The position numbers and the translations under genes were made by a program. Positions 1-56,155 of a stretch of 64,000 nt of DNA are shown in pieces. Source of the DNA: Lunularia cruciata (Eukaryota; Streptophyta; Marchantiopsida; Lunulariales; Lunulariaceae); contig OX419760.1 of NCBI GenBank assembly GCA_948567375.1, positions 63,670,911 to 63,734,910 of the forward strand, written 5' to 3'. The notes below the pieces were generated by a model. The model made no database searches. It saw only the letters and a list, made by a program, of their open reading frames with translations, and was not told the origin of the DNA. Within the stretch, counting starts at the first letter, position 1. Each line of letters begins with the position of its first letter.

Positions 1-880
1 GGAAGGTCTATACACCATAAAGAGTCTTGTTAGACTTTGGTGTGCAGACCCTTATGTTGGGGAAGTCTATAGTTGTCGGTCTGGAGTTACGAAAGACCAA
101 TGTGGAGAGGTATCCATTTCAGATCCAGACATCTCTAGGTGGTGGTTCAACACAGTAAAACACACGTGGGGAGCTTGTTGTCCAGGCTCAGCCTGGTCAT
201 CCAACTGATAGCTTGGTGGTGAGAGCTCAGGCTATTGCAACAATAGTTGAGTCATATGATGTGCTAGTGGGGGGAGCAATGTTATACCCCATGGGTTTCA
301 GCATTGACTATTGGGAGGAGACAGCCTCTTATAGACCTGGTTGGCAGTCTGGTGAAGGACGGGTATGTCACCTACCACTACGCTTCAGTAGTGGCAGTCT
401 TGGCTCACTACAATCCGGGACCATGGCAGCATCAGTTTTAGCTTTCATTGGTGCAGTTACTTGGCATGGTGACTTGTTGGAGGGGAAGCCCATGTAGAGG
501 ATACTCCAATACCAGATGAGATCACTCGGCTTTGGAGTACGAGTGGGATTGTTCCATCTACCTTGCATGTTCCATTGTGGAGTTCCAAGGAGGCGTTGCA
601 ATAGCATGAACATCAATTGGTGCAGCATGCTTGGAGTGGTGGACGTACGTCTTCCACTCCTACGACAGTTCTAGAGGATACTTGGGAGCCAGATCTTGGA
701 CCCAAGCTTATTGGAGAAGAAAGACGGAGGGTTTAGAGGTTCTTGAGGAGTCACACGAGTTGTTTTGCCTTCAGTATGAAGGATTTGGGTGCTCTGAAGG
801 GACTTGGTATACGGATTGAGCTGACTAGTGATATACCAGTTTTCTGATGTCCTAATCGATATAGTGAGATGGAGAGGACA
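1..880 (+). pseudogene. Gypsy copy 1: aspartic protease remnant and protease-RT spacer
   Basis: The frame around positions 10-60 reads a retroviral-type protease active-site context, but the Asp-Ser/Thr-Gly triad is Asp-Phe-Gly (33-41) and a stop precedes it. The nested copy retains DSG at the matching place (44289-44297), so this copy carries a damaged active site. The rest (about 210-880) is the linker toward RT, open only in pieces. Around position 640 the sequence jumps directly from the linker to the pre-RT segment. The nested copy has about 1.4 kb of methyltransferase-coding sequence at that point. Confidence 0.75.
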
Positions 881-2190
881 TTGATTCAGAGCCGGAGTAG
901 TGATCTGGTTTGGTGGAGATTTCACATGGAGAGTATGCATCAGCACAATGATGCCAGCCAGGAAGGATATGCATGGCAACAACACAAATAGGCGGATGTG
1001 TGGAGATTACTGTCTTATCAACCGACAGACCAGGGCTGATTGGTATGTCATGCCTACACCAGAGGAGATTTTTGATACAATTGGGCATGCAAAGGTCTTC
1101 AGTACTTTGGATCTTTGAGCAGGATATCATCAGTTGCCGATCAGGGAGGAAAATAAATCCAAGACAACATTCTAGGCTATTGATCCTCACGGTAAGGATG
1201 TATTATATTAGTGGAGGTTCTTACCATTTGGGTTGAAGAATGCTCTAGCTGAGTTCCATAAGGGTCATGGATAGTATCCTAGCTGGATTGGATTTTGCTC
1301 GGTACTATATTGATGACATTTTGGTCTATAGCACTACTGTGGAGGAGCATGAGAGACAGTTGTTGGAGGTGTTTGAGAGGTTGAGATCTCATGGACTCAA
1401 ATTACATCCTGGGAAGTGTAGGTTCTTCCACGAGCAGGTTGAGTATTTGGGTCACACAATCTACCCCGGAGGACTTGGTGTTTAGCAGACCAAGGTGGAG
1501 GCTATTGCACATATTCCTCAGCCTACGGATGTGAGCAAAGTACGAGCATTCCTTGGGTTGGCAAACTTCTATCGCCGCTATGTTAGAGGATTTAGTTTCA
1601 TTGCCAAGGCCTTGACAAAGCTGACCAAGCTTACACAGGAGTGGTGTTGGGGAGATGAGAAGGAGAGAGCTTTTGTAGAGCTCAAGGAGAAGTTGACATA
1701 TGCTCCTATTTTGAGGAGACCAATCAGAGGACAACCATTTCAGGTTCATACTGATTGGAGTATGTTGGAGCTTGGAGTAGTGCTCACCCAGCATGATGAT
1801 GAGGGGAAGGAGTTTGTGGTGGCCTATGCTAGTCGCTCCAACAATTCAGCGGAGGCAAAGTATAGTTCATATGAGGGAGAGTACTTGGCAGCAGTTTGGG
1901 CAGTAGTACATTTCCGATGTTACCTATTTGGTAATCCCTTCACTATCATCATTGATCATCAACCATTGAAGTGGTTGATGGAGTCCAACAAGCTTTCAGG
2001 GAAGCTTGCACGATGGGCTCTGATTTTATAGGAGTATGATTTCACGGTTGTTCACAGACCTAGAGTGGTGAACCGTGATGCAGATGAGTTGAGTAGAAAC
2101 CCATGTCCCAGCCAGCAGGATCAGACCGGAGCACGTTGGCATGGTGAGATAGATGAGGAGATGGTGCCGAGTTGGCATGCATCTGCCTTT
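881..2190 (+). pseudogene. Gypsy copy 1: reverse transcriptase and RNase H
   Basis: RT palm and fingers run from about 884 to 1490. The catalytic box is YIDD, encoded at 1306-1317. Other family motifs visible include GYHQLPI, FLPFGLKNA and LGHTIYP. RNase H follows in the frame from 1495 to about 2100, with Asp in HTDWSM (1753-1755), SSYEGEYLAAVWA, DHQPLKWL and NRDADELSR, so the expected acidic residues are present. Stops interrupt the frame at several glutamine positions, for example after LDL (near 1117), after VLY (near 1209), after GGLGV (near 1483) and after ALIL (near 2029). In life this domain would copy element RNA into cDNA in the cytoplasmic particle. This copy cannot make an intact protein. 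Confidence 0.92.
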
Positions 2191-2304
2191 TTGTGTATAT
2201 TTTTTGAGGCTTTGGTGGTATCTCTCTCAGTGCATACAAGAGGAGTTATTGAGGTCACAGATCCAAAGAGTGAAGATATTAGTACAGTTCAATGAGACAT
2301 TCAT

Positions 2305-3590
2305 GATGATGTCTTAATGATGGACTATCTTCGCATTGGTGTTGTGCGTGGTACAGTTGGGGCCAAGGAGAGAGACCATGTTCTTCAACAAGCCAGACGG
2401 TTTAGATTGGAGAGCAAACACCTTTTGCGTGTACGAGAGGATGGTAGAGTGCGAGTAGTACCACTTCCAACACAGAGACCACAGTTGGTCCGTCATGCTC
2501 ATGAGGAGCTAGGACATTTTGGAGTAAAGCGTACATATAGCTTACTCCAGGGTCATTATTGGTGGCACGGTATGCAGACCAAGGTATAGCAGTTTGTTGC
2601 CAGATGTGTGGTTTGTGACCGAGTTAGAGCATCATTCAATGCTCCTAGACCAGTTCCACCCATTACCTATCATGGGATTGGATTACCGTTGGAGTTTGGA
2701 CTTCGCTGGACCTTTACCGCTGACTATGAGACATCATCGGTATGTTTTGGTGATGGTGGAGCACTTCTCCAAGTGGATTGAGTTGGTGGCACTTCTTGAC
2801 AAGTCTAGTGAAGGGACAGCTTACTCGATCTTGGATTGAGTTCTTAGTCATTTTGGTGCACCAGCTGAGGTTTTGACTGATCAAGGTATGGAGTTCTTGG
2901 GAGAGTTTCAGGTCTTGTGTGATAAGGCTTTGATTGATCATCATACTACATCCCGAGATCACCCTGAGGTAGATGGCTTAGCAGAGAGAGTGGTTTAGAT
3001 GGTGAAGAGAGGATTGCAAAAGTATGGTTTGTAGAGAGGCCACTTGGGAGATTGGGATCTCCAGTTACCTTGGTTGGCCATGGGCTATCAGTTCAGCCAG
3101 CAAGCCTCCTTAGCATCCTTCTCTCCATACTTTCTACTCTATGGACAAGATCCAAATTTACCTGCAGCCATTCATCGAGATGCTACTGTAGTTTTGGACT
3201 TGGATGACCCCGATGGATGGATGAGTGCATGTTCTCAGCGGGCAGAGATCTTTTGGAGATTGATGCCGATGGCCTTTGAGAACTTGGCGATTGCTCAGCA
3301 TAGAGATACTTTATGTTATGCTACCATTCGAGGAGGAGGTTATAGACCCTCAATCTATCGATTTCATCCATGCGACTATGTATATCTATAGCAGATAGCA
3401 CCGACAACACATGATGTTTCAACAGGCCGCACTATCTTGAGAGTGCGTGAGGTTTTGCCATCTGGAGTCCTTGTGTTAGAAGGACGTGATGGTGTTGTTT
3501 GGAAGGATCATGTGCGCAATTGTGCACCATGCCACCTCCCAAACATTGATGGTACTATGGACCCAAGCTTGGCACTTGTACGTGCAGGCT
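2305..3590 (+). pseudogene. Gypsy copy 1: integrase (H2C2 zinc finger and DDE core)
   Basis: The N-terminal H2C2 finger lies at about 2490-2620 (HAHEELGHFG, then YWWHGMQTKV and FVARCVVC). The DDE core follows with frameshifts. The first Asp is in LDFAGPL (about 2699), the second in LTDQGMEF (about 2876) and the Glu in GLAERVV (about 2980), so all three catalytic acids are still encoded, unlike in the nested copy. The segment SPYFLLYGQDPNLP and a trailing beta-rich region (GRTILRVREVLPSGVLVLEG, about 3425-3490) form the usual C-terminal part. No chromodomain is seen after it. Instead the frame leads into a PHD finger. Stops fall mostly at codons that are Gln in the other copy. Confidence 0.9.
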
Positions 3591-3595
3591 TGAGG

Positions 3596-3736
3596 TGTAT
3601 GTTATGTGGCTCTTCTGGTGGAGCTACTACTATGTTAGTGTGTGATAGTTGTTCAAGAGGATGGCATATGGCATGTATGACTCCTCCCCTCATGGTGGTT
3701 CCTTAGGGACAGTGGTTATGTCCTAGATGTACTTGA
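3596..3736 (+). pseudogene. Gypsy copy 1: C-terminal PHD finger of the polyprotein
   Basis: A complete C4HC3 PHD finger ends the polyprotein. Zinc ligands are Cys codons at 3596, 3605, 3641, 3650, His at 3665, and Cys at 3674, 3719 and 3728. The spacing is CX2C-X11-CX2C-X4-HX2C-X14-CX2C, with the diagnostic Trp two residues before the seventh ligand and the typical MLVCDSCSRGWH and PPL segments. A TGA follows one codon after the last Cys, and the same stop is present in the nested copy, so this is the true C-terminus. One TAG interrupts the finger (3704-3706) where the other copy has CAA. PHD fingers commonly read histone H3 tails, so a role in guiding integration or chromatin contact is inferred. 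It replaces the chromodomain found in many plant Gypsy elements. Confidence 0.9.
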
Positions 3737-3905
3737 CCTATAGCTAGTTCATTCTTTATATGGTATAGATTGCAGACAAGCAACTAACAATGGGGCTCCA
3801 TAGCACCCGGCCTCCTGCTCTTTGCTCATCATAGGGTATACCGTATACTTAGAGTAGATGGCTATCTGGAGTTAGAGGGACCAAACCGCCAGCTAGGGGG
3901 GCAAT

Positions 3906-4545
3906 TGTGGCACTTTAGAGTCTATGTATGACTTATGTGTGAGTTGTGCTTCTATTGTGTATGATGTTCACAGCAATGTATGTTGTGTAGCGATGTATAT
4001 ACGCACAACAGCTATCACGCCATTTGTAGTTTCGCATCTAGATGCTCGGACATTGGAGTTCTAGTGATAGTAGTTAAAGGCATTTTGGCCATTACTCATA
4101 GACTACTTTCCGACGTTCAGATTCAGGTTTAGTGACTTCATGGTGGGGCCCACCATCCGCACCGTCGGGTGTGCCGTCAGCGGGACCGTTGGGAGGAGAC
4201 CTAGGTTGAAATCAGGAGTATACCCTGGGAGTGCAGCTCCAGAGATCTCACTTCTTTGATGTTGACCCTTCGAGTTCTTGGCTAGAGTGGACAGAAAGCC
4301 GGCGAGCGTCACCTGGAGTCTCTATGCTAGAGTGGGTGTGGCTTGACTATAATCAATGCCCTATTGTTGGCAAGTTGTTGAGGATCAGATCAAGTATTGA
4401 TCTGAGTTTGATTGATTCAAGTAGTAAGTGATCTGATTATTGTGGCACTTTAGAGTCTATGTATGACTTATGTGTGAGGTGTGCTTCTATTGTGAATGAT
4501 GCTAACAACGATGTATGTTGTGTAGCGATGTATATACGCACAACA
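3906..4545 (+). repeat. Gypsy copy 1: 3' LTR region with 105-bp terminal duplication
   Basis: The LTR region follows a G-rich run (about 3893-3905). It has a U-M-U layout: a 105-bp unit beginning TGTGGCACTTTA (3906-4010), a middle part of about 430 bp (4013-4440), then a second copy of the same unit (4441-4545) ending GCACAACA. The nested copy has the same arrangement at 38504-39164, while its 5' LTR (47804-48246) consists of the middle part only. The unit may be a duplicated LTR end carried by the family. Confidence 0.8.
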
Positions 4546-5390
4546 AACTTCTCATGTATGGTGTTTCATAAAGGTAATACTTTTTCTCTCTAATCTTGAA
4601 TATATCAAGAAAATTAATAGATGCTCTCTTGTATTTATTAGGGTTTTGCAAAATCTTATAATTATTCCATTCTTGTTGTAACATTTTATCAACAAAGTTT
4701 ACTTTTAGTAAGAGAGGTCTATTTTTATAGGAATATATATAATGCAATCTAAATATATTAAAAGTAGTGAAATATTAATTTAAATGAATTTGATCAACAT
4801 CACAAAAACATTAGGTAATATTATTATCCTTGGGATGTTGTAATGGGATATAGATCTCATTATTGATACCAGTTTTAATCTTATGGGAAATATTAATAAA
4901 TTGGTTAGTCTAAATAGATCTTAGTAGCTTTTCTTTGATTCTAAGATATAGAAGTCTTCATGTTCTATGATTTAAAAGAAATTGATAAGGTCTACATATA
5001 TTCATATTATTTTTATGTTTCTTTTCTTCTTTAATAGCTCACTTTCATGTAATTTATCTTCTTCATATCCATGTTGTTCTATCAGTTCTGATTTCTTGAT
5101 CTCTTCATAGATTGACATGAGGAGAAGTAATTTATCTCCAAATCCATTTACTTATGCTTTCAAAGAAAAACTCATATGATTATATTTTTTCTTTTCTTAT
5201 AGATGGAGTGTCATTTTGAACCTCCAATAAAGAAAAAATTTGGCTTCAAATTTTATATATCTTACAATGAGCTAATATGAGAAGCATGTAAAATAACCAT
5301 GTGATCATGGAAAATAGTTTATAGACATCAAAATGTCTTTTGTAAATTGTAAATTTTAAATATCAATAAATTGTTCAATGTAAGTCAACT

Positions 5391-21472: not shown

Positions 21473-22211
21473 TGTAATACCAAGGGTTAGCCATATGATG
21501 TAGATGTGAAATTCGGTTTGGTAACTTCTAGAATGGGTGTTATACATGATGGTCAAAATAGATCAGATAGAAGTATCACCAAAAGAGTACTTCTACTAAT
21601 AGGGCAGAAACCAAAATAAACTTGAGAACTTTAGAACCAATAGCTAGACATATGATTTAAAGGTGAGAATTGGTTTGGTAACATCTGGAAGGATGTTACA
21701 CATGATGGACTAAACAGATTAGAAAGAGGTATCACCAAAAGGGGACTTCTACTAATAGAGTAGGAACCAAAATATGCCTGAAATCTTTGAAGGCAATTTC
21801 GGAGGCCTAAACGGATGAATTAGGCCTCGAAAATATGCAGATGCACCCCTAACAAAGGAAAGGTTGGCCTTCCCTCCACCCAACTTTGTCTCGTCGAGAG
21901 CTTTCCAATGGTACCTTACTCACGTGATTCTGAGATTCCTACAGGAAGATTCCCTAAAAGATTCCCTCCGGTCAAAGCTTGTTTGACCAACCAGATAGGA
22001 CCTAGACCAGACAGGTCACCCATCCAAGTAAGTAATCCAAGGGTGGAGCTTGCTGACATGTCACCTATCTGTGTCCCTAATCCTATGGTGGAGCTTCCTT
22101 GGAGGAGATCCTCTTTGTCTATATAATAAAGAGAAGGTGCTCCCTTGGGGCATCGAATGTTTGAGTGTGCAATCTGTGTTTTCTCTCTTCTCTTGTCCTC
22201 AAAGTATTACA
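21473..22211 (+). mobile_element. Solo LTR (LTR2 family) with 5-bp TSD CCATC
   Basis: A 739-bp LTR, TGTAATACC...AGTATTACA, is flanked by perfect direct repeats CCATC (21468-21472 and 22212-22216). It interrupts the conserved TCTTCCCATCCTTC end block of the RT repeat. Internally it has two related units of about 180 bp, each with GGTTTGGTAAC, a GTATCACCAAAAG box and ACTTCTACTAATAG. A TATATAATAAAG box lies near 22120. Confidence 0.9.
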
Positions 22212-33949: not shown

Positions 33950-34975
33950 TATGCATATGTCCTCGGGTTACTAGAGCACATCTTCACTTTGGCAAGGGTG
34001 CATGCTCTTGGATCTTGGATCAATTGTGCATTAGCGCATTCCGACTAGCATCATCCACTTTCTCTACAACGATGACATTCCGCCTAAGTTTGGTCCACCT
34101 GTTTGCAACTTCATTAATCACTTGTGAGTGTGGTTCTACACTAGATGCAGCAGTGGTCCCTATGACATTGTGTCCTTATGGAGGAGAGAAGATAGCTACC
34201 CATGATGCCATAAGAGATATAGTGTTTGCTATGGCACGTGAGAATGGATACCTTGCTTGGAGGGAACGTTCATATTCTTTGCAGACGACATGTGTCAAAG
34301 CAGACTTATACTTGGTCTGAGATGATCAAGTGACAATAGCGGATGTTGTGGTTATAGAGACTTCATGTGATTCAATTCTTGAGTGAGTGATTACTCATCC
34401 TCTTGGATGGGCGGTGAGCACTTATACTTGGTCTGAGATGATCAAGTGACAATGGCGGATGTTGTGGTTATAGAGCCTTCATGTGATTCAATTTTGGAGG
34501 GAGTGATTACTCATCCTCTTGGATGGGCGGTGAGCGGTGCAACAACATGTAAGGTTCCAAGTATAGGGGTATGCAGCGAGGTCACCTCTTTGTTCCTTTG
34601 GCCTTGGAGTTATATGGAACAATGAGCATGGTGTTTGAGACATTTGTCAGGGAATGCATAATAGCTTATTATATTAGATGCTAGGGGATACCAATCTCAC
34701 TCTCATAGTCTAGACAACGTGTGTCCATTGCTCTATAGAGAGCATTGGTTAGTGCAATCCATAGGAGAGCAATCACTCTAGGTTATGCTTCTTCAGATGC
34801 TCCAATAGATTGTAGACCTTACAACTTGCATAGCCAAAATTGGTGTAGTAGGGAAGATTTTCATATCAATACTATTGAGGCCTAGCCTCATTTTACCTCT
34901 TTTGTCTCTCCTTTGCAGCTTGATGAGGTCTTCCTATCCTTCTTGTGTTTAATGTGGCTGCCTTCCCTTGCTCAG
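33950..34975 (+). mobile_element. RT-bearing repeat copy C, 5'-truncated
   Basis: About 1 kb matching 25050-25960 of copy B in the same order, ending at the CTTGATGAGGTCTTCCTATCC end block (about 34950). The RT part is missing. It contains a 116-bp tandem duplication (34305-34536). Confidence 0.75.
34305..34536 (+). repeat. Tandem duplication, period 116 bp
   Basis: CTTATACTTGGTCTGAGATG begins at 34305 and again at 34421. The two units are nearly identical and lie inside RT repeat copy C. Copies A and B have one unit. Confidence 0.88.
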
Positions 34976-37050
34976 GAATTACATTGGGTGGTTTCATTTA
35001 TAAGTTTCAATGAACTCCATGGGTGAAAGGATGAGTTACATAGAACTTTGACATATACCCATAAACAAAAAGTGCTAATAACTAAATATTTCTTTTAAAA
35101 GTTGTTAAAGGTGATGAAATTTTTTTGAGACTTTGGTGGTCTTATTTTTAAAATTTATGGGTAGAATTAGAAGAAAGACTTTGTTTGAATTACTAACACA
35201 CAAGACAAAATAATTATGATATTGGTAACATGTTACCGTGTGAGCAATAAGAAAAGTGATGTGGAGCAAGCAAAATTCACATTATGTACTCTTGAAATAT
35301 TTGAAACTCATCCTTCTCAAAAGCTCAATTATTCCTACATCTACATTGGTGAATAAATCCAAAGTAAGATAATTGAATTGATCATGTACCATTTTTTCTA
35401 ATCCAATTGAATTGAGAATTGGGAAGTGAGATTTATTTTGCCATCTAGAGTTAAGAGATGTGAAAATCTGCACACCATGAACCATTTCCATCTTAGATGT
35501 AGTAGTTTGCATGTTATAGTCATGATTGCAAATTGCAAATTGCATAAGTAGAAAACAAAGAGTACACCCACTCACAGTCTCTAAATCCTCTTTCTATTCC
35601 ATATTGTGTAGATCCTTGTGTTAATTCTAATTCTAGTCCTTGTGTATCACCAAGCAGAAGTACCTTCCAAGAGCTTCTTCTCAAGATGGTATTGTCAGCA
35701 CTTTCTTCTATCGAGAGCAAAATGAAGTTCAAGGAGGAAAGGTTTAGGATGATGTCTCATTATTATAAGCAGATTCTGAATTATTTAGAAGATCTAGAGC
35801 ACTTAGCATAGACTACAAGGAGCAATTGCAAAAAACCAGTTCAGAAGAGCACAAGTTTCAGTTACATGATTGCATATTTGGGTTGGTATGGGAAAGGGTT
35901 GATTCCGGAGTTGATGATAGGAGATAAATTATACAAGATGTCTGCACAATAAATGGAACTGTACAAGGATACACAAGATCGGAAGGACAAGTGCACCAGA
36001 GAAAGTGTCACAAAGAAAGAATTGAAATGGGGATGGAGAACTATAGATGATAAGTTAAATCATCTTTTCTCTCATTTTAAGAAAATAAATTTGATGTTTG
36101 GATATAGAGCAAATATTGCTCCACCAATTAAATCATCTTTGCTCTCATTTCAAGAAAATGAATTTGATGTTTGGATATAGAGCCAATATTGCTCTACCTG
36201 CACTTGTAAGTATGGGAATTTGCAATGAAGTGAATACTTTTGAAAGGATGGTGTAGAAAGAAGAGAAATGTTAAACCAGAGGAAGAAGAGGAAGCTGACA
36301 CTTCAAGATTTTTCTTATGCATTCTTTGGTAGCCAAGTTCTAGATTTGATTCCTTTTTCTATCTTGTGCTAAGTGAAGGGCAAGGGCTAAATGAAGATAA
36401 CATGCAAAGGGTTTGAAGAGGATAGTCATACATATTCAGATTATATTGAAGATGGTTTACAAGCTGAAAAAGCATTGAGAATAGAGGAGGATATTTGAGA
36501 AGAAGACAAGGAAAGAGAGCATGAGGATGAAAATTGAAAAAGGAGGAAAATGCACAATTACAAGATGACACCATCCTTGGCCTCTTTCTTGCAAGACTTG
36601 GCTACACACACAAAATTAAAGAGCAAGTCTCTAGAAGCAAAAGAGAGATGTAAGTAAGTTAAAATTAATGCACATAAATTAGCTAAGATTGAGAAGCTAT
36701 GCATGAAAGTGGAAGTTGAGAAAATGAAAGTAGATGTTGAGAGATTTTCCACAAAAAGAAGATTAGGTTTAAGGAATGAAATACTAAAGCCAAATAGTTT
36801 CATACCATGAGTCTTGAATTAGGACACATTAGGAAGAGCTCAAAGGAAATAAAAAGTATTATCATGATGATTTGTAACATAAAAACTCCGTATGGTAGTT
36901 ACACTAGTGACCCAAAATTTCCTACACTTGATTAGACTCATAGTGCAAATGATGATAGCCATGATAACAATAGCTTTGATATGTAAGATATACAAATTTT
37001 ATAATAAAAATTATTGTTTCAAATCTCATGAAACATGAAATGTTTTAAGT
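34976..37050. other. Degraded sequence of unknown origin
   Basis: Some coding-like plus-strand pieces are seen (for example 36556-36800, with a Lys/Glu-rich helical character), but no family is recognised and stops are frequent. A 71-bp tandem duplication lies at 36057-36198 (AAATCATCTTT...GGATATAGAGC). Confidence 0.4.
36057..36198 (+). repeat. Tandem duplication, period 71 bp
   Basis: AATCATCTTTTCTCTCATTT begins near 36058 and a close copy near 36129. Both continue through TTTGATGTTTGGATATAGAG. Confidence 0.8.
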
Positions 37051-37059
37051 TTAAGCTAG

Positions 37060-37380
37060 TATGAGCCTATATGTGTTGGGTTACTTTGGATGGTGAAGAC
37101 TATGATGAGCTACACTCATATGCACTAGGTTATGTTGGTTTATGAAAAGATGAGCACTTGTATATGTTGGTTTGCACTCATATGAGTTGGAGTATGTTGG
37201 TTTGTGAAAAGGTGAGCACATGTATGCTCATATTGTTGGGTTATGGTGGCAAGTGCAAAGGTTGATGCTTGTATATGATGATCTATGCTTGTATGCATTG
37301 GTGTGCGCTTGGCACTTTGTGCAAGTAATGGTGTGCATTGGTGTATGTTGGTGTGCTCTGGTGTGCATTGGGTAGGGTTT
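37060..37380. repeat. Degenerate GT-rich minisatellite
   Basis: Loosely repeated words such as TATGTTGGTTTGTGAAAAG, GAGCACATGTATG and GGTGTGCATTGG. It ends exactly where the outer LTR2 begins. Confidence 0.6.
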
Positions 37381-38503
37381 TGTAATACCATTAGCTAGAC
37401 AGATTATCTAAAGGTGGAAATTGGTTTGGTAATATCTTGAGGGATATTATATATGATGGTCTAAGTAGATCAAATATAAATTTTATTAAAAGATTACTTC
37501 CACTAATAGGGCAAAGGTTGAAAATACACTAAAATCTTAAGAGCAAATTTTGGATGCTAAAATAGATGAATTAGGCCTCAAAAAATGGAAGATCCTTCCT
37601 TTTAGATGAAAATAAATTGCCTTTCTTTCCTTTTCTCCTCCCCCTCCTCCCTCCCTTGTTTGTCTTATCAAGAGCTTTCCAGTGGTCCTACACCCATGCT
37701 TTTTTTAGCTTCTTATAATAAGATTCTCCAAAGATTCCCTTTGGTCAAACTTGTTTCACCAACCAAATAAGACAAGGATCAACATATGTAATCTTTCAAG
37801 GATAGGAGACCTGAAGAGAAATACACAATTTCACACTCAACTTCAGATGCCCCAAAGGAGTACCTTGACTATATTATATAGCAAAGGGGACTCCTTCGAA
37901 GGAAGCTCCACCCTTGGATCAGATACATGGATTGGTGACGCAAACTCTACCTTTAGATTGGTTGCACGCATGGGTAACATGTTGGTTCTGACCCTATCTG
38001 GTTGGTCAAACCATCTTTGACTAAAAGGATCTTTAGGGAATCTCCTTATAGGAGTCTCCAAATTGCGTGGGTGAGGTAATGTTGGAAAGCTCTCAACGAG
38101 ACAAACTTAAGAGGAAGGAAGATCAGTATTGCATTCATGGGAGGGGGGGTGAATTTGTACATTTTTTAGGCCTAATTCATCCGTTTAGGCCTCCAAAATT
38201 GGCTCTAAAGTTTCCAGGCTATTTTTGGCTCTTGCTCTATTAGTAGAAGTCCTCCTTTGGTGACACCTCTCTCTAAACTACCTAGCCCATCATGCATAAC
38301 ATCCTTCCATATGTTACAAACCAATTTCCACCTCTAGATAATATGTCTAGCTTTTGATATTACAAATTTGAGTTATTTTTTACTCTTGCCCTATTAGTAG
38401 AAGTACTCTTTTGTTGACACCTCTATCTGATCTACCTAGCCCATCATACATAACATCCTTCCAGATGCTACCAAGCCAATTTTCAACTCTAGATGTTATA
38501 TCA

Positions 38504-39164
38504 TGTCATGCGTATATACATCACTATCAACATCATACACTATAGAAGCACAACTCAAGCATAAGTCATACATAGATTCTAAAGTGCCACAATAATCAGA
38601 TTGTTTACAACTCTCAACTCAATTCAACTCAGATCAGTACTTGATCTGTCACTCTATAAACTAATAACAATTTGGCATTGATTACAGTCAAGCCACATCC
38701 ACTCTAGCTAAGAGAATCCAGGTGACACTCTCCGGCCTCTGTCCACCATAGCCAAGAACTCGAAGGCTCAACATCAGAGAAGTGAACCTTCAAGTTCAAC
38801 TCCAAAGAAAGATCTCTGGAGCTGCATATTGAAATTATACCCCTGGACTCAAGCTAGATCTAGAACCCTAACGGTCCAAGTGATGGCACACTCGACAGTG
38901 CAAAGTGATAGTGGGCCCCACCGTGAAGTCAGTACTCCAAACATGAAATCTGACCATTGAAAAGTAGTCTATGGGAAATTACTAAATACCTCTAACTACT
39001 ATCACTGTAACTCTAATGTGCGAGCAATCTAGATGTGATACTATAAATGGCATGATAGTTGTCGTGCATATATACATTGCTACACAACATACATCGTTGT
39101 CAACATCATACACTTTAGAAGCACAACTCACACATAAGTCATGCATAGACTATAAAGTGCCACA
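38504..39164 (-). repeat. Gypsy copy 2: 3' LTR region (U-M-U)
   Basis: On minus: unit U' (39164-39060, begins TGTGGCACTTTATA), middle part (39057-38592), and second unit U (38591-38504, with a short internal deletion, ending GCATGACA). It has the same organisation as 3906-4545, so the duplicated unit predates both insertions. Confidence 0.8.
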
Positions 39165-39333
39165 ATTGCCCTCCTAGTTGGCAGTTAGGTCCCTCTAACT
39201 CCAGATAACCATCTACTCCAAGTATACGGTATACCTTATGCTGGGCAAAGATTAGAAGGTTGGGTGCTATAGAACCCTATCATTAATCGCCTGTTTGCAA
39301 TCTATACCATATAAAGAATGACCTAGCTATAGG

Positions 39334-39474
39334 TCAAGTACATCTAGGATATAACCACCATCCTTGAAGAACTACCTTGAGAGGAGAAGTTATACATGCC
39401 ATATGCCATCCTCTCGAACAACTATCACACACTAACGTAGTAGCAGATCCACCAGAAGAGCCACATAACATACA
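39334..39474 (-). pseudogene. Gypsy copy 2: C-terminal PHD finger
   Basis: The same PHD finger as at 3596-3736. First Cys codon 39472-39474, last Cys codon 39340-39342, then Thr and a TGA stop as in copy 1. Seven of eight zinc ligands are kept. The seventh Cys has become Tyr (LYPRC instead of LCPRC). The codon that is TAG in copy 1 is CAA here. A second copy of the domain at the same place shows that the PHD finger is a stable part of the family's polyprotein. Confidence 0.88.
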
Positions 39475-39499
39475 CCTCAAGCTTGCATGTACAAGTGCC

Positions 39500-40610
39500 A
39501 AGCTGTTGTTGGTGCTATCTGTTGTAGATATATATAATCTCTTGGATGAAATTGACGGATTGAGGGTCTATAACCTCCTCCTCAAATGGTAGCATAGCGT
39601 AAAGTATCTCTATGTTGAGCAATCGCCAAGTTCTCAAAGGCCATTGGCATCACTCTTCAAAAGATCTCTACCCATTGAGAACATGCACTCATCCATACAT
39701 CTGGATCATCCAAGTCCAAAACTACAAGAGCATCTTGACAAATGGCTATAGGTAAATTTGGATCTTGTCCATAGAGTAGAAAGTAAGGAGAGAAGGATGC
39801 TAAGAAAGCTTGCTGGCTGAACCAATAGCCCATGGCTAACCAAGGTAATTGGAGATCCCAATCTCCTAAGTGGCCTCTCTACAAACCATACTTCCACAAT
39901 CCTCTCTTCACCATCTGAACCACTCTCTTTGTGAAGCCATTTGCCTTGGGGTGATCTCGGGATATACTACAATGATCAATCAAAGCCTTGTCATACAAGA
40001 CCTGAAACTCCCCCAAGAACTCTGTACCCTGATCAATCAAAACCTCAACTAGTGCACCAACATGATTAAGAACTCAATCTAGGAACAAGTAAGTTGTCCC
40101 TTCACTAGACTTGCTAGGAAGTGCCACCAACTCAATCCACTTGGAGAAGTGCTCCACCATCACCAAAACATACTGATGATATCTCACAGTCAGCGGTAAA
40201 GGTCCACCAAAGTCCAAACTCTAACAATAACCCAATCCCATGATAGGTAATGGCTGGAATTGTGGCGTTGGAGCATTGAATGATGTTCTAACTTGGTTGA
40301 GTTAGAGCATCATTCCACACATCTGGCACAATTTTTTGTACCTTGGTCTGCATACCGCGCCACCAATGATGAATTTGGAGTAAGCTATATGTATGCTTTA
40401 CTCCAAAATGTCCTAGCTCCTCATGAGCATGATGGACCAATTGTGGTCTCTGAGATGGAAGTGGTACTACTCATACTCTACCATCCTTCCAGACCCGAAG
40501 AAGGTGTCTACCCTCCAATCTGAACCGCTTGGCTTGTTAAAGGACACAATCTCTCTCCTTGGCCCCAAATATGCCACCCACAACACCAATGTGAAGATAG
40601 TCCATCATTA
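39500..40610 (-). pseudogene. Gypsy copy 2: integrase
   Basis: Minus-strand integrase in broken frames. The H2C2 finger lies around 40330-40470 (HAHEELGHFGVKHTYS, WWRGMQTKV). The core lies around 39900-40230 (VLVMVEHFSKWIELVAL, LIDQGTEFLGEF). The C-terminal region runs 39500-39890 (SPYFLLYGQDPNLP). The third catalytic acid, Glu in GLAERVV of copy 1, is Lys here (GFTKRVV), so this copy would be catalytically dead even if translated. Confidence 0.87.
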
Positions 40611-42206
40611 AGATTCACCATAATGTACAGTTCAATCATGAATGTCTCATTGAACTGTACCAATATCTTCATTCTCTGGATCTGTGACCTCAATAACTCC
40701 TCCTAGATGTGTTGAGAGAGATACCACCAAAGCCTCAAAAAATATACAGAGAAAGGCTGATGCGTGGCAACTTGGTACCATCTCCTCATCTATCTCACCA
40801 TGCCAACGTGCTCCGATCTGATCTTGCTGGCTCGGACATGCGTTTTTCTCAACCCATCTGCATCATGGTTCACCACTCCAAGCCTGTGAACAACCGTGAA
40901 ATCATACTCTTGTAAAATCAGAGCCCATTGTTCAAGCTTCCTGAAAGTTTGTCGGACTCCATCAACCACTTCACTGGCTGATGATTTAGTGATGAGAGTG
41001 AAGGGGTTACCAAATAGGTAACATCGGAAATGTGCTACTGCCCAAACTACTGCCAAGCACTCTCCCTCATATGCACTATACTTTGCCTCCACTGAATTTT
41101 TGGAGCAACTAGCATATGCCACCACAAACTCCTTCCACTCATCATCATGTTGGGTGAACACCGCTCTAAGCTACAACATACTCCAATCAATATGAACTTA
41201 AAATGGTCTTCCTTTGATCGGTCTCCTTAAAATAGGAGCAAATGTCAACCTCTCCTTGAGATCAACAAAAGCTCTCTCCTGCTCATCTCCCCAATGCCAC
41301 TCATGTATTAGCTTTGTCAGCTTTGTCAAGGCCTTGGCAATGGCACTAAATCCTCTAACATAGTGGCAATAGAAATTTTCCAACCCAAGGAATGCTCGCA
41401 CTTTGCTCACATCCGTAGGCTGAGGAATACGTGCAATAGCCTCCATTTGTCTGTTAAACACCAAGTCCTCTAGGGTAGATAGTGTGACCCAAATACTCAA
41501 CTTGCTCATGGAAGAACCTACACTTCACAGGATGTAATTTGTGTCCATGAGATCTCAACCTCTCAAACACCTCCAACAACCATCTCTCATGCTCTTCCAC
41601 AATAGTGCTATAGACTAAAATGTCATCAATATAGCACCAAGAAAAATCCAATCCAAGTAGGATCCTATCCATGACCCTCTAGAACTTAGTAAGAGAATTC
41701 TTTAACCCAAATGGTAAGAACCTCCATTGATATAACACATCCTTGCCATGAGGATCAATAGCACAAAATGTTGTCTTGGACTTATCCTCCTTCTTGATCG
41801 GCAATTGATGATATCCCGCTTGAAGATCCAAAGTATTGAAGACCTTTGCATGCCCAATTGCATCAAAAATCTTGTCTACTATAGGCATGGCATACCGATC
41901 AGCACTAGTTTGTTGGTTGATAAGATGGTAATCTCCACACATCTGCCTATTTGTGTAGTTGCCATGCATATCCTTCTTGGTTGGCATTCGTGTAGTTGAT
42001 GCATACTCTCCATGTGAGATCTCTACCAAACAAACCTCAAAAAGGTCTCTACTCCGATTCTTAATCAATGTCTTCTCCATGTCACTATAACAATAAGGAC
42101 ATTGGAAAATTGGTGTATTGCTAGTCAGCTCAATCCGTATACTAGGTCCTTTTAGAGCACCCAAATCCTTCATATTGAAGGCAAAACAACTCGTGTAGCT
42201 CCTCAA
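40611..42206 (-). pseudogene. Gypsy copy 2: reverse transcriptase and RNase H
   Basis: RT on minus from about 42110 to 41450 (MPTKKDMHGN, YHLINQQTSADRYAMP, LQAGYHQLPIKKEDKSK, FLPFGLKN, YIDD near 41630). The segment 41679-42206 is continuously open and joins the pre-RT linker in the same frame. RNase H covers about 41200-40790 (FVVAYASCSKNS, YEGECLAVVWAVAH, VVNHDADGL). The DHQPL segment has been altered by a local change around 40990. Gln is encoded at several positions that are stops in copy 1 (LQAGY, LYQWR, ILQEYDF). Confidence 0.9.
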
Positions 42207-42559
42207 GAACCTCCAATCTCTTTGTCTTTCCTCTCTTGTATGCTTGGGTCCAAGATTTGGCTCCCCAGTATCCTCTATAATTGTCGCAAGAGTGGAAGAC
42301 GTACTGACTTGCTGCTACACTAGGCCCTTGGGAGCAGTAGTGTCATGCCCCCAAGCACTAGAGGTTCCAACCTCGGTGTGAAAAACTCCCCCCACTCTGG
42401 CTGCAAGCTCCACACGTCCTCTAACTACACACCAAGGGTGTAATCCAAGTAGCCCAAAATTACCCGGATGGACTCCAAGTAGACCACTCTCCCTAGTAGC
42501 TACTGGTTGTGTTCCAAGAATACCATGTCCATTTGGTCCATTGCCCCCAACATGTGCCT

Positions 42560-43620
42560 AAATCGTCTTGATAAGCACAAGGCTCACAAATGTCCGAGTG
42601 GTGATGCCTATCAAGCACATTCTACACTGCTCTGCCAAACCAAGGCTCACAATCCAGGTCAAATAGTTTAGGTCCATAGCTTGACCTAACACCTGACGCT
42701 TGGATGCCTTTGATACTACTAGAACAACGGTAATACCAATGAAAAGACCCAACACCCACTCTCTCATCGGCGTTAGGCTCCACCAACTATTGTAACTATG
42801 AGTCCCAAACAAGTCCAAGTCCTCCCTCTCAAAAAGCATGAGAGCCTAAGAAACTCATAAGTGTGGAAAAAGCGGCTCTAGGCTGTCCAACTAGGTTCAC
42901 CACTGCCATAGGTGACCTATCAGCCACTACCACCATCTAAGATTAATGCCTCACATCCAAGATGTCATCAACAAGGATGTGGTCTAGTCATTGAATCCCA
43001 TCATATGCACGCTGTAAAACCTCTCTGCGTAAGAGGTTTGTCCACCAAAGACAAAGACAATGAGCCCATGATCCCACTCTGGCTGCATCCAGCAATACAA
43101 TAGGTCCCATCCAAGAATGGACTTGATGTGTACTTGCCACCACTTTGGTGCAAGAATCACCCATCAAAGGAACGTTCTCCAAAAAGTAAGTTGGAGAAAT
43201 GGATTGATGAACCTAAAGATGCCATAAATAAAGATAAAGATATCCGTAACATCTCCCAAAACACAATAGAACAAGGATCCTGAAGACCCAAACCTTGACC
43301 AACATGGGTATGTCCCTAACATGGCCATCTAGCAATCACCAAGTGAATGGGACCATGTCTCTCCAGATCATGCACCCCTAGTAAGGAAATGTCTGTTGGT
43401 AGGGCCTTCTAATAACCTTTGACTGTTGACATTGGTAATAACTCCGGATATTAATAGGCCAAGTGTGCCACATGATGTAAAAAGACTCGCCTAGCAATCT
43501 CATCTCTCTCCACATACAAGTACCTCCGTACTAGTATACCCACCTATAGGACTGTAGCTAGTCCGATGCTAATCCCACCGGACAACTCCAATAAACATAC
43601 TCCCTCTATTGGATACTGCC
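42560..43620 (-). pseudogene. Gypsy copy 2: cytosine-5 DNA methyltransferase domain between protease and RT
   Basis: Minus-strand frames contain the ordered motifs of a C5-cytosine methyltransferase. Motif I (SAM binding) is LLELSGGISIGLATVL at about 43549-43594. Downstream come RRYLYVERDEIARRV and DLERHGPIHLVIARWPC. Motif IV has the catalytic Pro-Cys, with Cys codon 43319-43321, followed by a TAG where Gln is expected and then GHTHVG. Motif VI is LENVP, with ENV at 43171-43179. A motif VIII-like LWWTNL lies at 43033-43050. Motifs IX-X appear as EPNADER and RQVLGQAMDLN near 42667-42755. At least two frameshifts and several stops disrupt it. The end of the domain is in the same frame as the following RT linker, so it was part of Pol. 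It would methylate cytosine in DNA using SAM, if active. It is absent from copy 1. Confidence 0.88.
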
Positions 43621-44219
43621 AAGCAATGAGTGTGGTATCAAGAGTTGTCAAGGTAATTGACTCTAGAGGTTCATCCTCACACTCATCTCCTGGTGGTACA
43701 AAGGCTCCACTCCAAGCTTGCTACACCAACCGATCTGCACGTTGCTACAATGCCTCCTCTGAACTCCACAATGGAACATCCAAGGTGGATAGAACAATCC
43801 CACTTGTACTCCAAATCCAAGTGATCTACTCTAGTATTAGAGTATCCTCTACAATAACTCACCAAGCCAAGTAAATGCACCATTGAAAGTGAAACTGATG
43901 TTGCCATGGTCTTGGACTGTAGTGAGCCAAGACTACCACTACTAAAGCATACTAGTAGGCGACACACTCGTCCTTCACTAGACTACCAACATGGCCTGTA
44001 GAAAGTTGTCTCCTCCCAATAGTCAATACTGAAACCCATGGGACACAACACTACTCCCGCAACTAGCACATCATATGACTTAGCTATTGTCGCAATAGCC
44101 TGAGCTCTCACCACCAAGCTATCAGTCACATGACCACGCTAAAGCTAAAAAACTAGCTCTCCATGGGTGATGCATTGTGTCAAACCACCACCCATAGATA
44201 TTTGGATCTGAAATGGACA

Positions 44220-44345
44220 CATCTCTACATTGGTCTTCTTTAACTCCAGACTGACTATTGCAACCTTCCCCAACATAAGGGGCTATGCACCAGAGTCTAA
44301 CAAGACTCTCTGTGGTGTATAGACCTTCCCTAAAAGTCCCACCAA
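44220..44345 (-). pseudogene. Gypsy copy 2: aspartic protease active-site region
   Basis: The minus strand reads GKVYTPQRVLLDSGA, with the catalytic Asp-Ser-Gly codons at 44289-44297, then a stop (TAG) and the continuation PLMLGKVAIVSLELKK. It would process the Gag-Pol polyprotein. Copy 1 has DFG at the same place. Confidence 0.8.
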
Positions 44346-44868
44346 GTAGAAAATCCCCCTTTGGTTATCCAATAGGACAACACCAGATATGAACCACGCT
44401 CTTTCAAAAGCCGGTCTAGTTGGCAACTCCTCCAGTCTAGCGTTGCTGCTTGCCATAAACCACTGATCGCTGAATGGATCCCATGCTCCTCAACCAAGTC
44501 AGCTCCACTATCAACCACCTCTGCTCTAGTAGTAGGAACCGCATCATTCCTACTCTCACAAAGTGTCATAACCAACCAGAACATTGGAGTTGGGTCAACT
44601 CCCAATATAAACATGTGATTGGCTAAAAACAAAAAGCACCGCATAATCAGTTGAGATGTCCCCAACATCATGCTCAACTCAGTCTGTATAGTAGCAGGTG
44701 ACTGACTAGTAGGTAGTCCATCATGCACCCCATCACCACTAACACACCTGCATTGGGACATCTAGGAGCCCTGGATGTTGTCTGTAATGCCTCAAATGGC
44801 ATGAAAGACTAGGGAAGTCTGACTTATCTCCCAACCTCTCTTCTCTGTGGGTCCAACTCCATTGATAC

Positions 44869-46330
44869 TCATCTAGGCTCTGGAGCACATACTGCACTCC
44901 TAGTCATTGCTCTAGATGCATCCACTTGTGCTGCTCTACACATGAAGTCCAAAGCATCTCTATCATTAGAATATGAGGTGGAAGCCTCAACGCCCGAATC
45001 TGATCTCCTGTAAGCAATGGCCATACTAGCCAATCTCTGCTCCAACTTCTCAATCTGAGTAGCCATAGTTGTATCAAAAGTAAGGGTAGGTACTGCACCT
45101 CTACTAGGTGTAGATCCTCTACCACCACCTCTACCACCTTGTCCTCCTTGAATTGGAGCTCCTCTACTACCTGCCATAGCAGCCCTACCACTCCGTAACT
45201 CCGGGTGTAGGTCAAAGCATTGGTCACTAATGTGACCAAATCTATGGCAATGCTCACACTGCCTCTATGTTGGCGGCAATGCACCAAAGGTATTAGGTCC
45301 GCTGCCTTGAGTACATTCCCTCTTATGGTGAGATCCACCACAAGTCCAACAAGCAACACTACCACTTACTAGTTGTTGTTGATCTGAAAAGGAAGGTAAG
45401 GGTTTAGCTCCATTAGGCCCTCCACTCACTTTATATGATCTGGGTTGTCCATCTTGTCCTCAAAAATCAACTAGGCGTGGTGCACTCTACTACACTCTAG
45501 AAGAAGTAACAATTGTGGATGATGAGGTCTCCCTACCAAATCTAGATGTCACTACCCTCTCCTCCACCATGTTAAGCTGAATACGCTCAGCCAAACCAAA
45601 GACCACTGCTAAAGTAGGCAAAGTAGCCAGTAACAACGGAGCATCATGAACTCTACATCGCAACTTCCTATCCAATATCCCATACCAAAACTGGATTGCC
45701 TGGGCATGAGTAACTCCATGAGTGAAACTAATCAGCCACCTCATGCAAGTGTATGCCTCACGTAGGCTCTCTCCAGCCTTTCGTTGAAAATCCTTCAAGC
45801 TCCTCAGCTTATTAGTCCGCAACCCCTGGTAGTTCTACCTCAAACATTGAAAGAACTCCACCATGGGCTTAAATCCTCATACCACACCACCTCTTGCAGC
45901 GGTACCTCCACTTGTGATAACACTATCTCCAACTAGTGCACCTCCACTAGCTCCACCAACACTACTTGAGCTAGAACTCATGGGTACAACCAATCTACTC
46001 TTGGCAATCAAGCTTGAAGTGATAGAGACATAGTTTGGAGACCAATACTATCTCCATAACCCAATCTCCTCCAAATGAGCTCCCTTGAACTCATGGTAGT
46101 TGTCTATCGGCGGACCCTCCAAATGCTGAAATAACCCCTTCCATGCCATGAAAGGTGTAAACAAATTTGCGTTCCGCATTTGCTACAGATCACACCAACT
46201 ATCAAACTCTTGAATGAAGTCATTTAACTCAATGGTATCCACTATATCAAAGTAATGCCTAGGGCCTTTGAAGGCCCCATAAATCTTGTCCATGTCTCAC
46301 AACAATGATGCGGACACGCTAAGTGCTTTC
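44869..46330 (-). pseudogene. Gypsy copy 2: gag with two CCHC zinc knuckles
   Basis: A retrotransposon gag core is open on minus at 45490-45822 (LRSLKDFQRKAGESLREAYT, then FWYGILDRKLRCRV). Two zinc knuckles follow: CX2CX3HX4C at 45313-45351 (CWTCGGSHHKREC) and CX2CX4HX4C at 45217-45258 (CEHCHRFGHISDQC), separated by one TAG. After them comes a Gly/Arg-rich stretch and a short helical piece (IEKLEQRLASMA) at 44869-45177. N-terminal gag sequence continues to about 46330 (FDSWCDL, MAWKGLFQHLEGPPIDNYHEF) with stops. Gag would form the virus-like particle and bind element RNA. Confidence 0.85.
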
Positions 46331-47803
46331 TAAACTAAATCAGCTCCTATGTCAAACTCCAACTTAGAGTCAATCTCCTCCCTCACTGGAACCTGAGATA
46401 CAAGCTGATATTGAGTGCCACTCCAAGTAAACCCATTGCATATTGCAAGGCTAACTCTTCTATAATCCCCAAAGAACTTTGTCGTGACAAAGTAACCGTA
46501 AACTGGAACCACCAAATGCAACCGCAAACCGCAACTCCAAGTACTCCACCAAGTGCCAACACCAACTCAGCACCACCAAGTGCCAATACTCACAGAACAC
46601 CACCCACTAATGTAACTCTAATTGAGATAACTACACTAGGAAAAAAGGTGACCTGTAACCTACCATCACAACACCCACTCTCACGGTCTACAAGTCATCA
46701 CTTCCTACATCACCGGAGAGAAACAAAGGTAGTATGACTGGTCATTACTCTAGCCTCACTACCAAGAGCACACCAGAGCACCAACGCTCTAAATTCAAGG
46801 TACCTCACACAAACGTGATGCACAAACAAGAAGTAGAGAATAGAGAGGGTCCAATCACAAGAAATCTAAACAAAAACCCTCCATCTCATAAAGCAACACA
46901 AGATTGACTCTTCCACCATTTGGCATTTGATATAAGAGAAGTTTGTATCTACGTCCTAAGCTACCGAGATCACCAAGAATGGGATCAAACTGCCTCTCCT
47001 AGCCAAAGCTACAAGTGTGATGACAATGGCACATTCACTAGAACAACAAGTGAGGATGGACCAGTTGGCTAGGATACCAGTCTAGGAACAAGAGATTTAG
47101 GAGTCAAACCCTATTGTGCACAATCTAGCAGGATGGGTAGATTTTGCCAAACAATGACCAAGATCTACTCTAAACTAGATAGCCTCATGCCAACAAGCTG
47201 GCTTGCTGGCCCTTCGTAGCCCACAACCTTATGCCTCGAAGCTTCAAAATTCAGCCAAATGAGTCCTTTCTTCTTGCCACTTTGAACCCTCTCCAAATCT
47301 GGCAAAACTACTCCAAACTTGTGAGACTCCTCTAAATCTGGCCAACCAGCAAAACTCCTCCAAATCTGGCCAAAATCTGTTGTTAACTCCAGCAAAAATC
47401 TGACGTAAATCCTAAAGTTGGCTGACCGCCAAATCCTCCGCTAACTCTTCACTCGAGCAAAAATTTGAAAAACAGGTTTCTCCAAATCACAAATTCACAA
47501 GGATAGATTCCCAACTCCACCTTCAATTTTACTTTCTGTGCCAAACTTGCAACAAATTGGTCATGCCTTCACCTCTTGAGAAATCACAACAACTGCTCAA
47601 AATTAGCTTCTTCTTTGCTCAAAAATTGGCCAGCACTTCCGCACACCGTCTACCTTATTGCCAAATCTACATCAAGCAATGAGCTTTTGCACACTTGGGA
47701 AAAATTAAACTTCAATCGAGCTACCAACGATCCACCGAGCTTGGAGATACCACCAACACTCAAAGTTCTTGCACCCAATTTCCCCTAGACCTCACTTCTC
47801 TAA
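46331..47803 (-). other. Gypsy copy 2: leader between 5' LTR and gag
   Basis: About 1.5 kb without a recognised domain. On minus it contains short repeated words built on CCAGATTTGG (47280-47380), suggesting a degenerate internal repeat. No convincing tRNA primer-binding site was found directly after the LTR end at 47804. Confidence 0.55.
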
Positions 47804-48246
47804 TGTAATCAGATTGTTGTCAACTCTCGACTCAACTCAACTCAAATCAATACTTGATTTGTCACTCTCTAAACTGCCAACAACTGGGCACTGATTACAG
47901 TCAAACCACATCCACTCTAGCTAAGAAAATCTAGGTGACGCTCACCGGCCTTTATCCACCATAGCTAAGAACTCAAAGGCTCAACATTAGAGAAGTGAAC
48001 TCTTTGGAGCTGCACTTCAAAAGTTTACCCCTGGACTTGAGCTAGGTCCGAAACCCTAATGGTCCTATTGATGGCACACTCGATGGTGCAAAGTGACGGT
48101 GGGCCACACCGTGAAGTCAATACCCCAAACACAAAATGTGACTATCTTAAAATAGTCTATGGGAAGCTCTTGAAATACCTCTAACTACTATCACTGCAAC
48201 TCTAGTGTCCGAGCAATCTAGATGCAACACTACAAATGGCGTGACA
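47804..48246 (-). repeat. Gypsy copy 2: 5' LTR (middle part only)
   Basis: 443 bp reading on minus TGTCACGCCATTTG ... CAATCTGATTACA, a TG...CA pair. It matches the middle part (38592-39057) of the 3' region but lacks the flanking 105-bp units. Many substitutions separate the two LTRs, so the insertion is old. Confidence 0.8.
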
Positions 48247-55464: not shown

Positions 55465-56155
55465 GTGCGAGGCACTGCGGGCCAAAGGCTTGTCCACAAA
55501 CTCCCCTCTCTCTCTTCTCTCTCTCTCCCTCGTGCAGGAGGAGAATTCGGCCTCCGACCTTCCTTCGGAGCACCTTGGTCGGTCATCTCGTGTTCTTCTC
55601 ATCGTCTTCATCATCTCAACGACGTGGTAGGACGAGCTTGCTGCAGCAGCAGCAGCAAAAGAAGAAGACGAGCAGGAGAACGAGGAAGCGCTTGATGGAA
55701 GATTTTATGAAGAAAAGAAGCGTCGCGATTTGACATTAGCTGCTGCCCTGCCACTGAGTCTCGGTTTGGGGAGAGACTACTAGAGACTACAAGAAGACGA
55801 GCCTGGACTGTCTGGACTGTTCGGTGAAGGCGATGATGGATGGTGAGGACGCGGCGCAGAGAGATCTGTGAGACGATGGCGAAGGAGGAGATGTGAGAGG
55901 TAGGGATAGAGAAGAGGGACAATTCGGTGGAGGAGAAGATGAGCAGGAGTGATAGGGAATAATCGGGAGAGTGGCGATGCCGGAAGTGCAAGCTGGTGCG
56001 AGGCGGAGGGGAGTGATAGACAAAGAGAGAAGACGAGCTGAGATTGACGAAGTTGAGATTAAAATAGTTCGCGTTATTTGAGGTGGAGATATTAGACGTA
56101 GAGAAATTAAATTCCGCGCTGTGAAGTGAAGATTAAACAAGACAGGAGGCTTGGA
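55465..56155 (+). promoter_or_regulatory. Long leader of the LUX-like gene with five short uORFs
   Basis: Between the inferred start and the main ATG lie five AUG-initiated ORFs that all terminate before it: 55695-55733 (12 aa), 55833-55871 (12 aa), 55876-55896 (6 aa), 55939-55962 (7 aa) and 55977-56081 (34 aa). Purine-rich GA tracts and a CAG run (about 55640-55655) are present. Such a leader would restrain translation unless bypassed or removed by splicing; a leader intron cannot be excluded (GTGCAG after the CT tract at 55530). Confidence 0.55.

Follow-up and report, generated by a model that had tools for sequence, protein, structure and literature searches.

What is a cytosine-5 DNA methyltransferase (MTase) doing inside a retrotransposon of a land plant? 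This question is raised by a locus of Lunularia cruciata, which we studied within a stretch of 64,000 nucleotides, called the window here. A preliminary description, made from the letters alone, had placed a C5-MTase domain at 42560..43620, between the protease (PR) and the reverse transcriptase (RT) of a Ty3/Gypsy Pol. On reading the sequence, we found the quoted strings on the minus strand and in the order given, with LLELSGGISIGLA near 43,590, WPC followed by a stop codon and GHTHVG near 43,327, LENVPLMGD near 43,182, LWWTNL near 43,045 and RQVLGQAMDLN at 42,698. The protease DSG at 44,297-44,289 and the common frame of the last MTase piece and RT were also as described. The domain is present where it had been placed, but its true span is slightly larger, about 42,618-43,690, and is followed by a linker; a PHD finger at the C-terminus of the integrase (INT) is additional to the features listed previously. 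The element carrying the domain (copy 1) and a second one (copy 2) are composed as follows.

38575..48246, minus strand: decayed Ty3/Gypsy element carrying the methyltransferase (copy 1), with paired LTRs; 86% identity over about 8.8 kb to the young copies L015 and L020
47806..48246, minus strand: 5' LTR of copy 1; LTR pair 80% identical (438 bases compared, K 0.176)
44752..46512, minus strand: Gag with CCHC region, copy 1 (tblastn of P0034: 45% over 604 columns, frame -2)
43944..44450, minus strand: aspartic protease region, copy 1, with DSG at 44289-44297 (tblastn 41-52% among the matches listed, frame -3)
43691..43852, minus strand: conserved spacer between protease and MTase, copy 1 (tblastn of P0013 and P0022, frame -1)
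43241..43690, minus strand: N part of the MTase, copy 1, with motif I and motif IV WPC, then a stop codon (6 homologues, E down to 6e-53)
42618..43212, minus strand: middle and C part of the MTase, copy 1, with ENV, WWTNL, TRD and motif X RQVLGQAMDLN, in two frames (tblastn, among the matches listed: 42-60% in frame -2 from 43212 to 42637, 35-69% in frame -3 from 42764)
42318..42617, minus strand: post-MTase linker and end of ORF1, copy 1, ending at a stop at 42,317-42,315 (P0013 residues 590-696 aligned to 42764-42372)
42309..42317, minus strand: UAG CAG CAA, the decayed putative readthrough site of copy 1 (from the sequence; UAG CAG CCA in 20/20 young copies)
41445..42263, minus strand: reverse transcriptase, copy 1 (RVT_1 E 1.7e-7 on the open piece; tblastn 56-64%)
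40841..41449, minus strand: RNase H, copy 1 (RT_RNaseH E 2.9e-21)
39504..40130, minus strand: integrase, copy 1 (tblastn of P0033, 60%)
39337..39534, minus strand: PHD finger remnant, copy 1, still recognisable (54% to the PHD end of P0033)
38575..39058, minus strand: 3' LTR of copy 1 (by LTR pairing)
1..4546, plus strand: copy 2, cut by the window edge, with PR, spacer, RT, RNase H, INT, PHD and 3' LTR (92% to L015 4024-4663 and 6064-9919)

Copy 1 is an old, broken member of its family, whose functions were lost through point decay and frameshifts. Its MTase pieces are spread over three reading frames, and from 42,560 to 43,720 the aligned frames contain 12 stop codons. The aligned coding stretches of the whole copy hold 44 stops, 27 of them where homologues mostly have Q, R or W, residues whose codons become stops by C-to-T or G-to-A changes; the stop at 43318, next after WPC, stands where 58 of 61 aligned homologues have Q. 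The observed/expected ratio of CpG is 0.28 in copy 1 versus 0.51 in the rest of the window, both copies excluded. The PF00145 search proposed for this segment failed with the decayed pieces themselves (0 families for each of three MTase pieces), a PDB search with pieces A and B of the window MTase returned no DNA methyltransferase, and the decayed protease piece on its own had no Pfam match. Since the decayed MTase pieces miss Pfam, a reading of motifs alone might have been questioned.

Elsewhere in the window, a stretch of 78-108 bases beginning TGTGGCAC is directly repeated at both LTR ends (38516-38593 and 39089-39166; 3904-3981 and 4439-4546), which seems unusual for a Gypsy LTR. Outside the LTRs a repeat of 100-200 bases, 74-85% alike, occurs at 12745-13393, 21498-21758, 37379-37547 and 38220-38481, and two short tandem duplications lie at 34304-34535 and 36055-36198 (116 and 73 bases, 92-95% matches). 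A frame of 459 codons at 56111-57490 on the plus strand has a Myb-like (PF00249) domain and resembles plant LUX/PCL1 GARP proteins, which speaks for a plant host. Rfam (at the gathering threshold) and tRNA scans of the whole window gave no match.

Is the domain then a genuine MTase? Piece A, with its stops written as X, found 6 proteins among 57 candidates, 59-68% identical and with E down to 6e-53, and two of the six carry a precomputed PF00145 annotation. P0001 as a query, padded and with longer proteins admitted, gave 27 homologues among 2,202 candidates, and the MTase region of P0013 gave 65 proteins, itself included, at E up to 0.1 with 8,000 candidates scored. PF00145 was found in one of two homologues in one scan and in eight of nine in a larger one, and ORF1 of the young copy L016 also passed (30.4 bits, cut-off 22), so that the expected DNA_methylase match does exist in members of the family. 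The homologues bear the source names Marchantia polymorpha, Calypogeia fissa, Sphagnum troendelagicum, S. fallax and S. jensenii; a more distant one (35%) has a Chromochloris identifier, and there are metagenomic relatives too. P0022 and P0025 from Marchantia combine PF00145 with RT and RNase H domains, all above cut-off, and Marchantia proteins are co-linear with copy 1 through gag, PR, MTase, RT, RNase H and integrase. The homologues and these co-linear proteins confirm a C5-MTase, lying in a Ty3/Gypsy element after the protease and before RT. Identity of the window MTase with a young copy from the same genome reaches 84%; in a tree this MTase is joined, at 100/100, to the three young copies included, inside a land-plant element clade, and the Sphagnum-type and Marchantia sequences form separate clades. 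No relatives were found in viral contigs searched with P0001 and P0045, where query A3 gave 12 matches, all short and at 33-54% in their best segment; among genome contigs, P0001 found none and A3 found the element L047, which is described below.

The genome containing the window comprises 565.8 Mb in 74 contigs (the eight contigs met in our searches are 60-85 Mb each and sum to about 558 of 566 Mb, which may fit the karyotype of a liverwort). Searching it with P0013 gave 17,360 first-look candidates; the 62 that were scored match residues ~139-664, from the late protease through the MTase, at 65-68% identity, and 28 of them have no stop across this range. A PF00145 search gave 2,161 candidates and 123 scored places, all above the cut-off, which are mostly element copies, judged by profile range alone. 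Twenty of the 28 stop-free copies were fetched, picked by their PR-MTase score and the absence of stops there. LTR pairs are present in 18 of the 20, with a median K of 0.016 versus 0.176 in the window copy, and the order PR-RT-RNase H-INT (rve) between them fits a Ty3/Gypsy LTR retrotransposon. The family is multi-copy, plentiful and recently active in a land plant. With 62 scored genomic relatives and a co-linear arrangement in other species, the MTase is a property of the family and no late out-of-frame insertion.

The layout of the fetched copies is uniform: in all 20, Gag-PR-MTase, UAG CAG CCA and RT-RNase H-integrase-PHD follow each other in a single frame. MTase and linker are open up to the UAG in every one of them, which is unsurprising in copies selected for a stop-free PR-MTase stretch. 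ORF1, containing Gag with CCHC, protease DSG, spacer, MTase and linker, has 1,428 codons in seven copies, 1,431 in one and fewer in the rest; ORF2, with RT, RNase H, integrase and PHD finger, has 1,037 codons in the two copies whose frame is unbroken. None of the 20 has both frames open end to end. UAG CAR YYA, the readthrough context of tobamoviruses, is called essential in PMC2754532. This motif between two in-frame ORFs fits all 20 copies and L047, the window copy having UAG CAG CAA, and within the window CARYYA follows 13 of 7,364 stop trinucleotides. RNA folding downstream of the UAG was no better than in shuffles (z +1.1). Several metagenomic relatives end a little beyond the MTase linker, which is what termination at this site would produce. 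From the sequence context we infer that the UAG is a leaky stop with readthrough, and since both stop contexts fit UAG-CAR-YYA, the MTase would probably be made in Gag amounts. The assignment of the MTase to Pol therefore holds for the frame, which is that of RT, but not for the product: the conserved UAG intervenes in 20/20 young copies and would leave the MTase in the Gag-PR-MTase product rather than in the rarer RT-INT part.

The distant relative L047 has the same layout. Its ORF1 is cut by the contig start (1,162 codons present) and includes an MTase at 45.9 bits, after which come UAG CAA UCA and an ORF2 (1,047 codons) that comprises RT, RNase H, integrase and PHD. The six bases next to its stop are not the ones found in the Lunularia family, yet they match the same UAG CAR YYA motif. 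It matches P0022 at 36% in ORF1 and 54% on the RT side, P0010 at 46% in the best MTase segment, and the metagenomic P0045 and P0039 at 43-53%. Its PCQ and ENV motifs were matched and the stricter patterns for the other motifs were unmatched. The contig is filed under a Synechococcales (cyanobacterial) metagenome bin while carrying an evident eukaryotic-type Gypsy element, and probably represents contamination by a eukaryote; P0043 similarly bears the label of a Candidatus Obscuribacterales MAG.

To which class does the MTase belong? A family profile of 24 members compared with the PDB ranked DNMT3A/DNMT3B chains first (E 1e-25 to 9e-20), followed by 4onj and 4onq (1e-10 and 7e-9), named DNA methyltransferase only, which we take to be DRM, and by DRM2 at 2e-7. 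HaeIII, tRNA methyltransferase/DNMT2 and HhaI came lower, and no chain named DNMT1 or CMT was among the 54 matches listed at E up to 0.01. The young copy L016 alone matched DNMT3A at 3e-11. The motif order I-IV-VI-VIII-X is canonical and non-rearranged and, with the patterns used, PCQ and ENV are kept in 20/20 young copies and the other three motifs in 19/20 each. By profile and sequence scores, the element MTase is DNMT3-like; DRM, CMT and DNMT1 were rejected as its class by the PDB ranking and the profile scores. Host methyltransferases were compared through exons from five PF00145 places in the same genome, which we assign by motif to two host DNMT3-like exons, two rearranged DRM and one CMT- or MET-like exon. 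The family profile gave 61.8 and 15.3 bits on the DNMT3-like exons (the second is a short piece), 36.1 and 32.1 on the DRM-like ones and 10.0 on the CMT/MET-like one, also short. The element enzyme bears no more than a remote likeness to the DNMT3 and DRM of its host and, with such scores, is not a recent copy of a host gene. Could the window nevertheless hold a host DNMT gene or pseudogene into which an element was inserted, or the reverse? The presence of DNMT3-like host exons (L029, L032) is all that points this way, and it is set against their remote similarity, the co-linear arrangement in other species and the 62 scored copies matching late protease and MTase in one stretch. We regard such an origin as extremely improbable; the 62 copies and the layout of the 20 rule out that the window segment came from a host gene.

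Selection acts on the MTase. Its pairwise Ka/Ks is 0.31 in 20 copies (bootstrap 0.19-0.53), and that of RT+RNase H is 0.35 in 19 (0.23-0.54). The protease value of 0.37 has a wide interval (0.15-1.4), and constraint is weaker in integrase (0.54, 0.33-0.91, 18 copies) and PHD (0.68); these last two values were 0.79 and 0.87 before filtering, which left 18 of 20 copies, two having failed the identity or gap filter. Because the copies were picked by PR-MTase score, the apparent Ka is lowered in that stretch, but RT, outside this selection, gives a similar Ka/Ks. Synonymous and nonsynonymous variants of the MTase stand at 20:13 when common to at least two copies versus 26:46 in singletons (p 0.02), and those of RT+RNase H at 16:15 versus 28:68 (p 0.03); in integrase such a difference is absent (p 0.49). 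The MTase is under constraint at about the level of RT.

These values bear on the idea that the MTase is a passenger, present only through the youth of the copies and of no benefit to the element. Copy 2 would suit it, having lost the MTase, linker and UAG (~1.4 kb) at about 639-645 and yet retaining LTR sequence at both ends and its other parts; MTase-less copies therefore exist. Copy 2 is co-linear with 44329-43707 and 42304-41500 of copy 1, its 5' part is outside the window on the left (L034), and its spacer and RT start share one frame. Its inner part is 91-92% identical to young copies (92% to L015 versus 86% for copy 1) and its PHD remnant, near 3,590-3,733 within a 71%-identical integrase match, is better kept. 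Besides the Ka/Ks of the MTase, two further observations tell against a passenger. The 135-residue N part of the MTase is 73-74% identical between Marchantia/Calypogeia proteins and S. troendelagicum P0009 (three pairs), which is close to the protease (74-79%, two pairs) and above the spacer (52%, Marchantia versus Calypogeia), and the same domain lies in the same place in the distant L047. We therefore disfavour the passenger idea as quite unlikely.

Has the family been methylated? Within-copy LTR pairs of 18 copies differ by 118 transitions and 9 transversions and, with C taken as the older base, transitions affect 53 of 703 CG, 39 of 943 CHG and 26 of 2,359 CHH sites. From this we infer CG and CHG methylation of the family in cells that transmit their DNA, by the host, the element or both. 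The footprint may be wholly host-made. That the element encodes a writer which methylates its own copies, as first suggested, is no more than plausible; the host's own methyltransferases could equally have left the CG/CHG deamination footprint.

The PHD finger has a Cys4-His-Cys3 pattern and scores 40.9 bits in L020 and 39.9 bits in L047 with PF00628 (cut-off 24). Its best PDB matches are CHD4, KMT2D, PHF12, an MLL3 homologue, KDM5B and PHF21A, and some of these fingers read unmodified H3K4.

Taken together, it is highly probable that the window holds a broken copy of a multi-copy, recently active land-plant Ty3/Gypsy element encoding Gag-protease-DNMT3-type MTase, a leaky UAG and RT-RNase H-integrase-PHD. 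How such an element might work can be outlined from its layout. Most ribosomes would halt at the UAG, and since they mostly stop there, MTase would be made with Gag in excess over RT and integrase. The protease may free the MTase within the particle, where it would methylate the new cDNA before or during integration, perhaps at CG by analogy with SymbioDIRS-Dnmt3, and new copies would thereby enter chromatin pre-marked as self-like DNA. The PHD finger of the integrase may direct insertion to chromatin whose H3K4 is unmodified, in the way ascribed to the chromodomains of chromoviruses. Is it possible that the MTase is not used on element DNA, and instead methylates the genomic RNA in the particle, binds nucleic acid structurally in Gag-MTase or attacks competing DNA in the host cell? 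Its placement with Gag would suit a particle-bound nucleic-acid binder, RNA methylation has been raised for the LINE-borne sister case (PMC5890265), and defence against DNA viruses is speculated on in PMC6338049. However, DNMT3A/B, which act on DNA, are the best structural matches, DNMT2, a tRNA enzyme, ranks far below, and PCQ and ENV are kept in 20/20 copies; we hold such other roles to be rather doubtful. Returning to methylation of the element's own DNA, we propose tentatively, as a possibility less likely than not, that a green-lineage Gypsy clade in mosses, liverworts and apparently algae combines a Gag-level MTase before a leaky stop with a histone reader, for methylation in the particle and delivery to matching silent chromatin. 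If true, this would be a self-contained write-and-read strategy for a quiet entry into the genome.

DNMT-bearing retrotransposons are described in one charophyte and in dinoflagellates (PMC5890265), and PMC6338049 states that land plants, such as tracheophytes, lack them. The main text of PMC5890265 contains no words beginning Marchantia, moss or Physcomitrella, and 'bryophyte' once, for host-type Dnmt3. Our literature search, made in open-licence papers, found no earlier description of a bryophyte DNMT-bearing retrotransposon; the occurrence in land plants, the MTase before a predicted readthrough stop and the PHD finger all appear to be new within that literature. Besides its many recently active copies in Lunularia, the family is present in Marchantia, a genetic model, so that the part which a self-encoded methyltransferase plays for a retrotransposon can be tested directly. 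A specific prediction of stoichiometry follows from the leaky stop after the MTase, and one of targeting from the PHD finger.

Among the closest known systems is KnitGypsy-Dnmt3 of Klebsormidium nitens, a DNMT3 captured by Gypsy (de Mendoza et al. 2018, PMC5890265). As described there, it is likewise an LTR Gypsy whose coding region includes a Dnmt3-type, non-rearranged C5-MTase under purifying selection (Ka/Ks < 0.2), but it has an algal host, an MTase in the Pol polyprotein ORF and repeats described as DIRS-like (PMC5890265). The Lunularia family, in contrast, belongs to land plants and has its MTase upstream of a predicted leaky UAG in the Gag-PR frame and a PHD-bearing integrase; the name K. 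nitens was absent among the 65 proteins listed for the P0013 MTase query (8,000 candidates scored). SymbioDIRS-Dnmt3 and SymbioLINE-Dnmt of Symbiodinium are also retroelement-borne DNMTs, the first said to methylate CGs de novo and the second not to do so in yeast (PMC5890265), but they reside in DIRS and LINE elements of dinoflagellates and not in Gypsy. Readthrough of the TMV type is a further likeness, as the leaky-stop context fits both elements examined, the Lunularia family and L047, and readthrough candidates are mentioned among rice gypsy elements (PMC2754532). Here the upstream product ends in a DNA methyltransferase, and the readthrough is predicted from sequence. Lastly, the Lunularia family resembles chromoviruses, Gypsy elements with a chromodomain on the integrase, in having a chromatin-reader module at the integrase C-terminus, but differs from them in carrying a PHD finger in place of the chromodomain.
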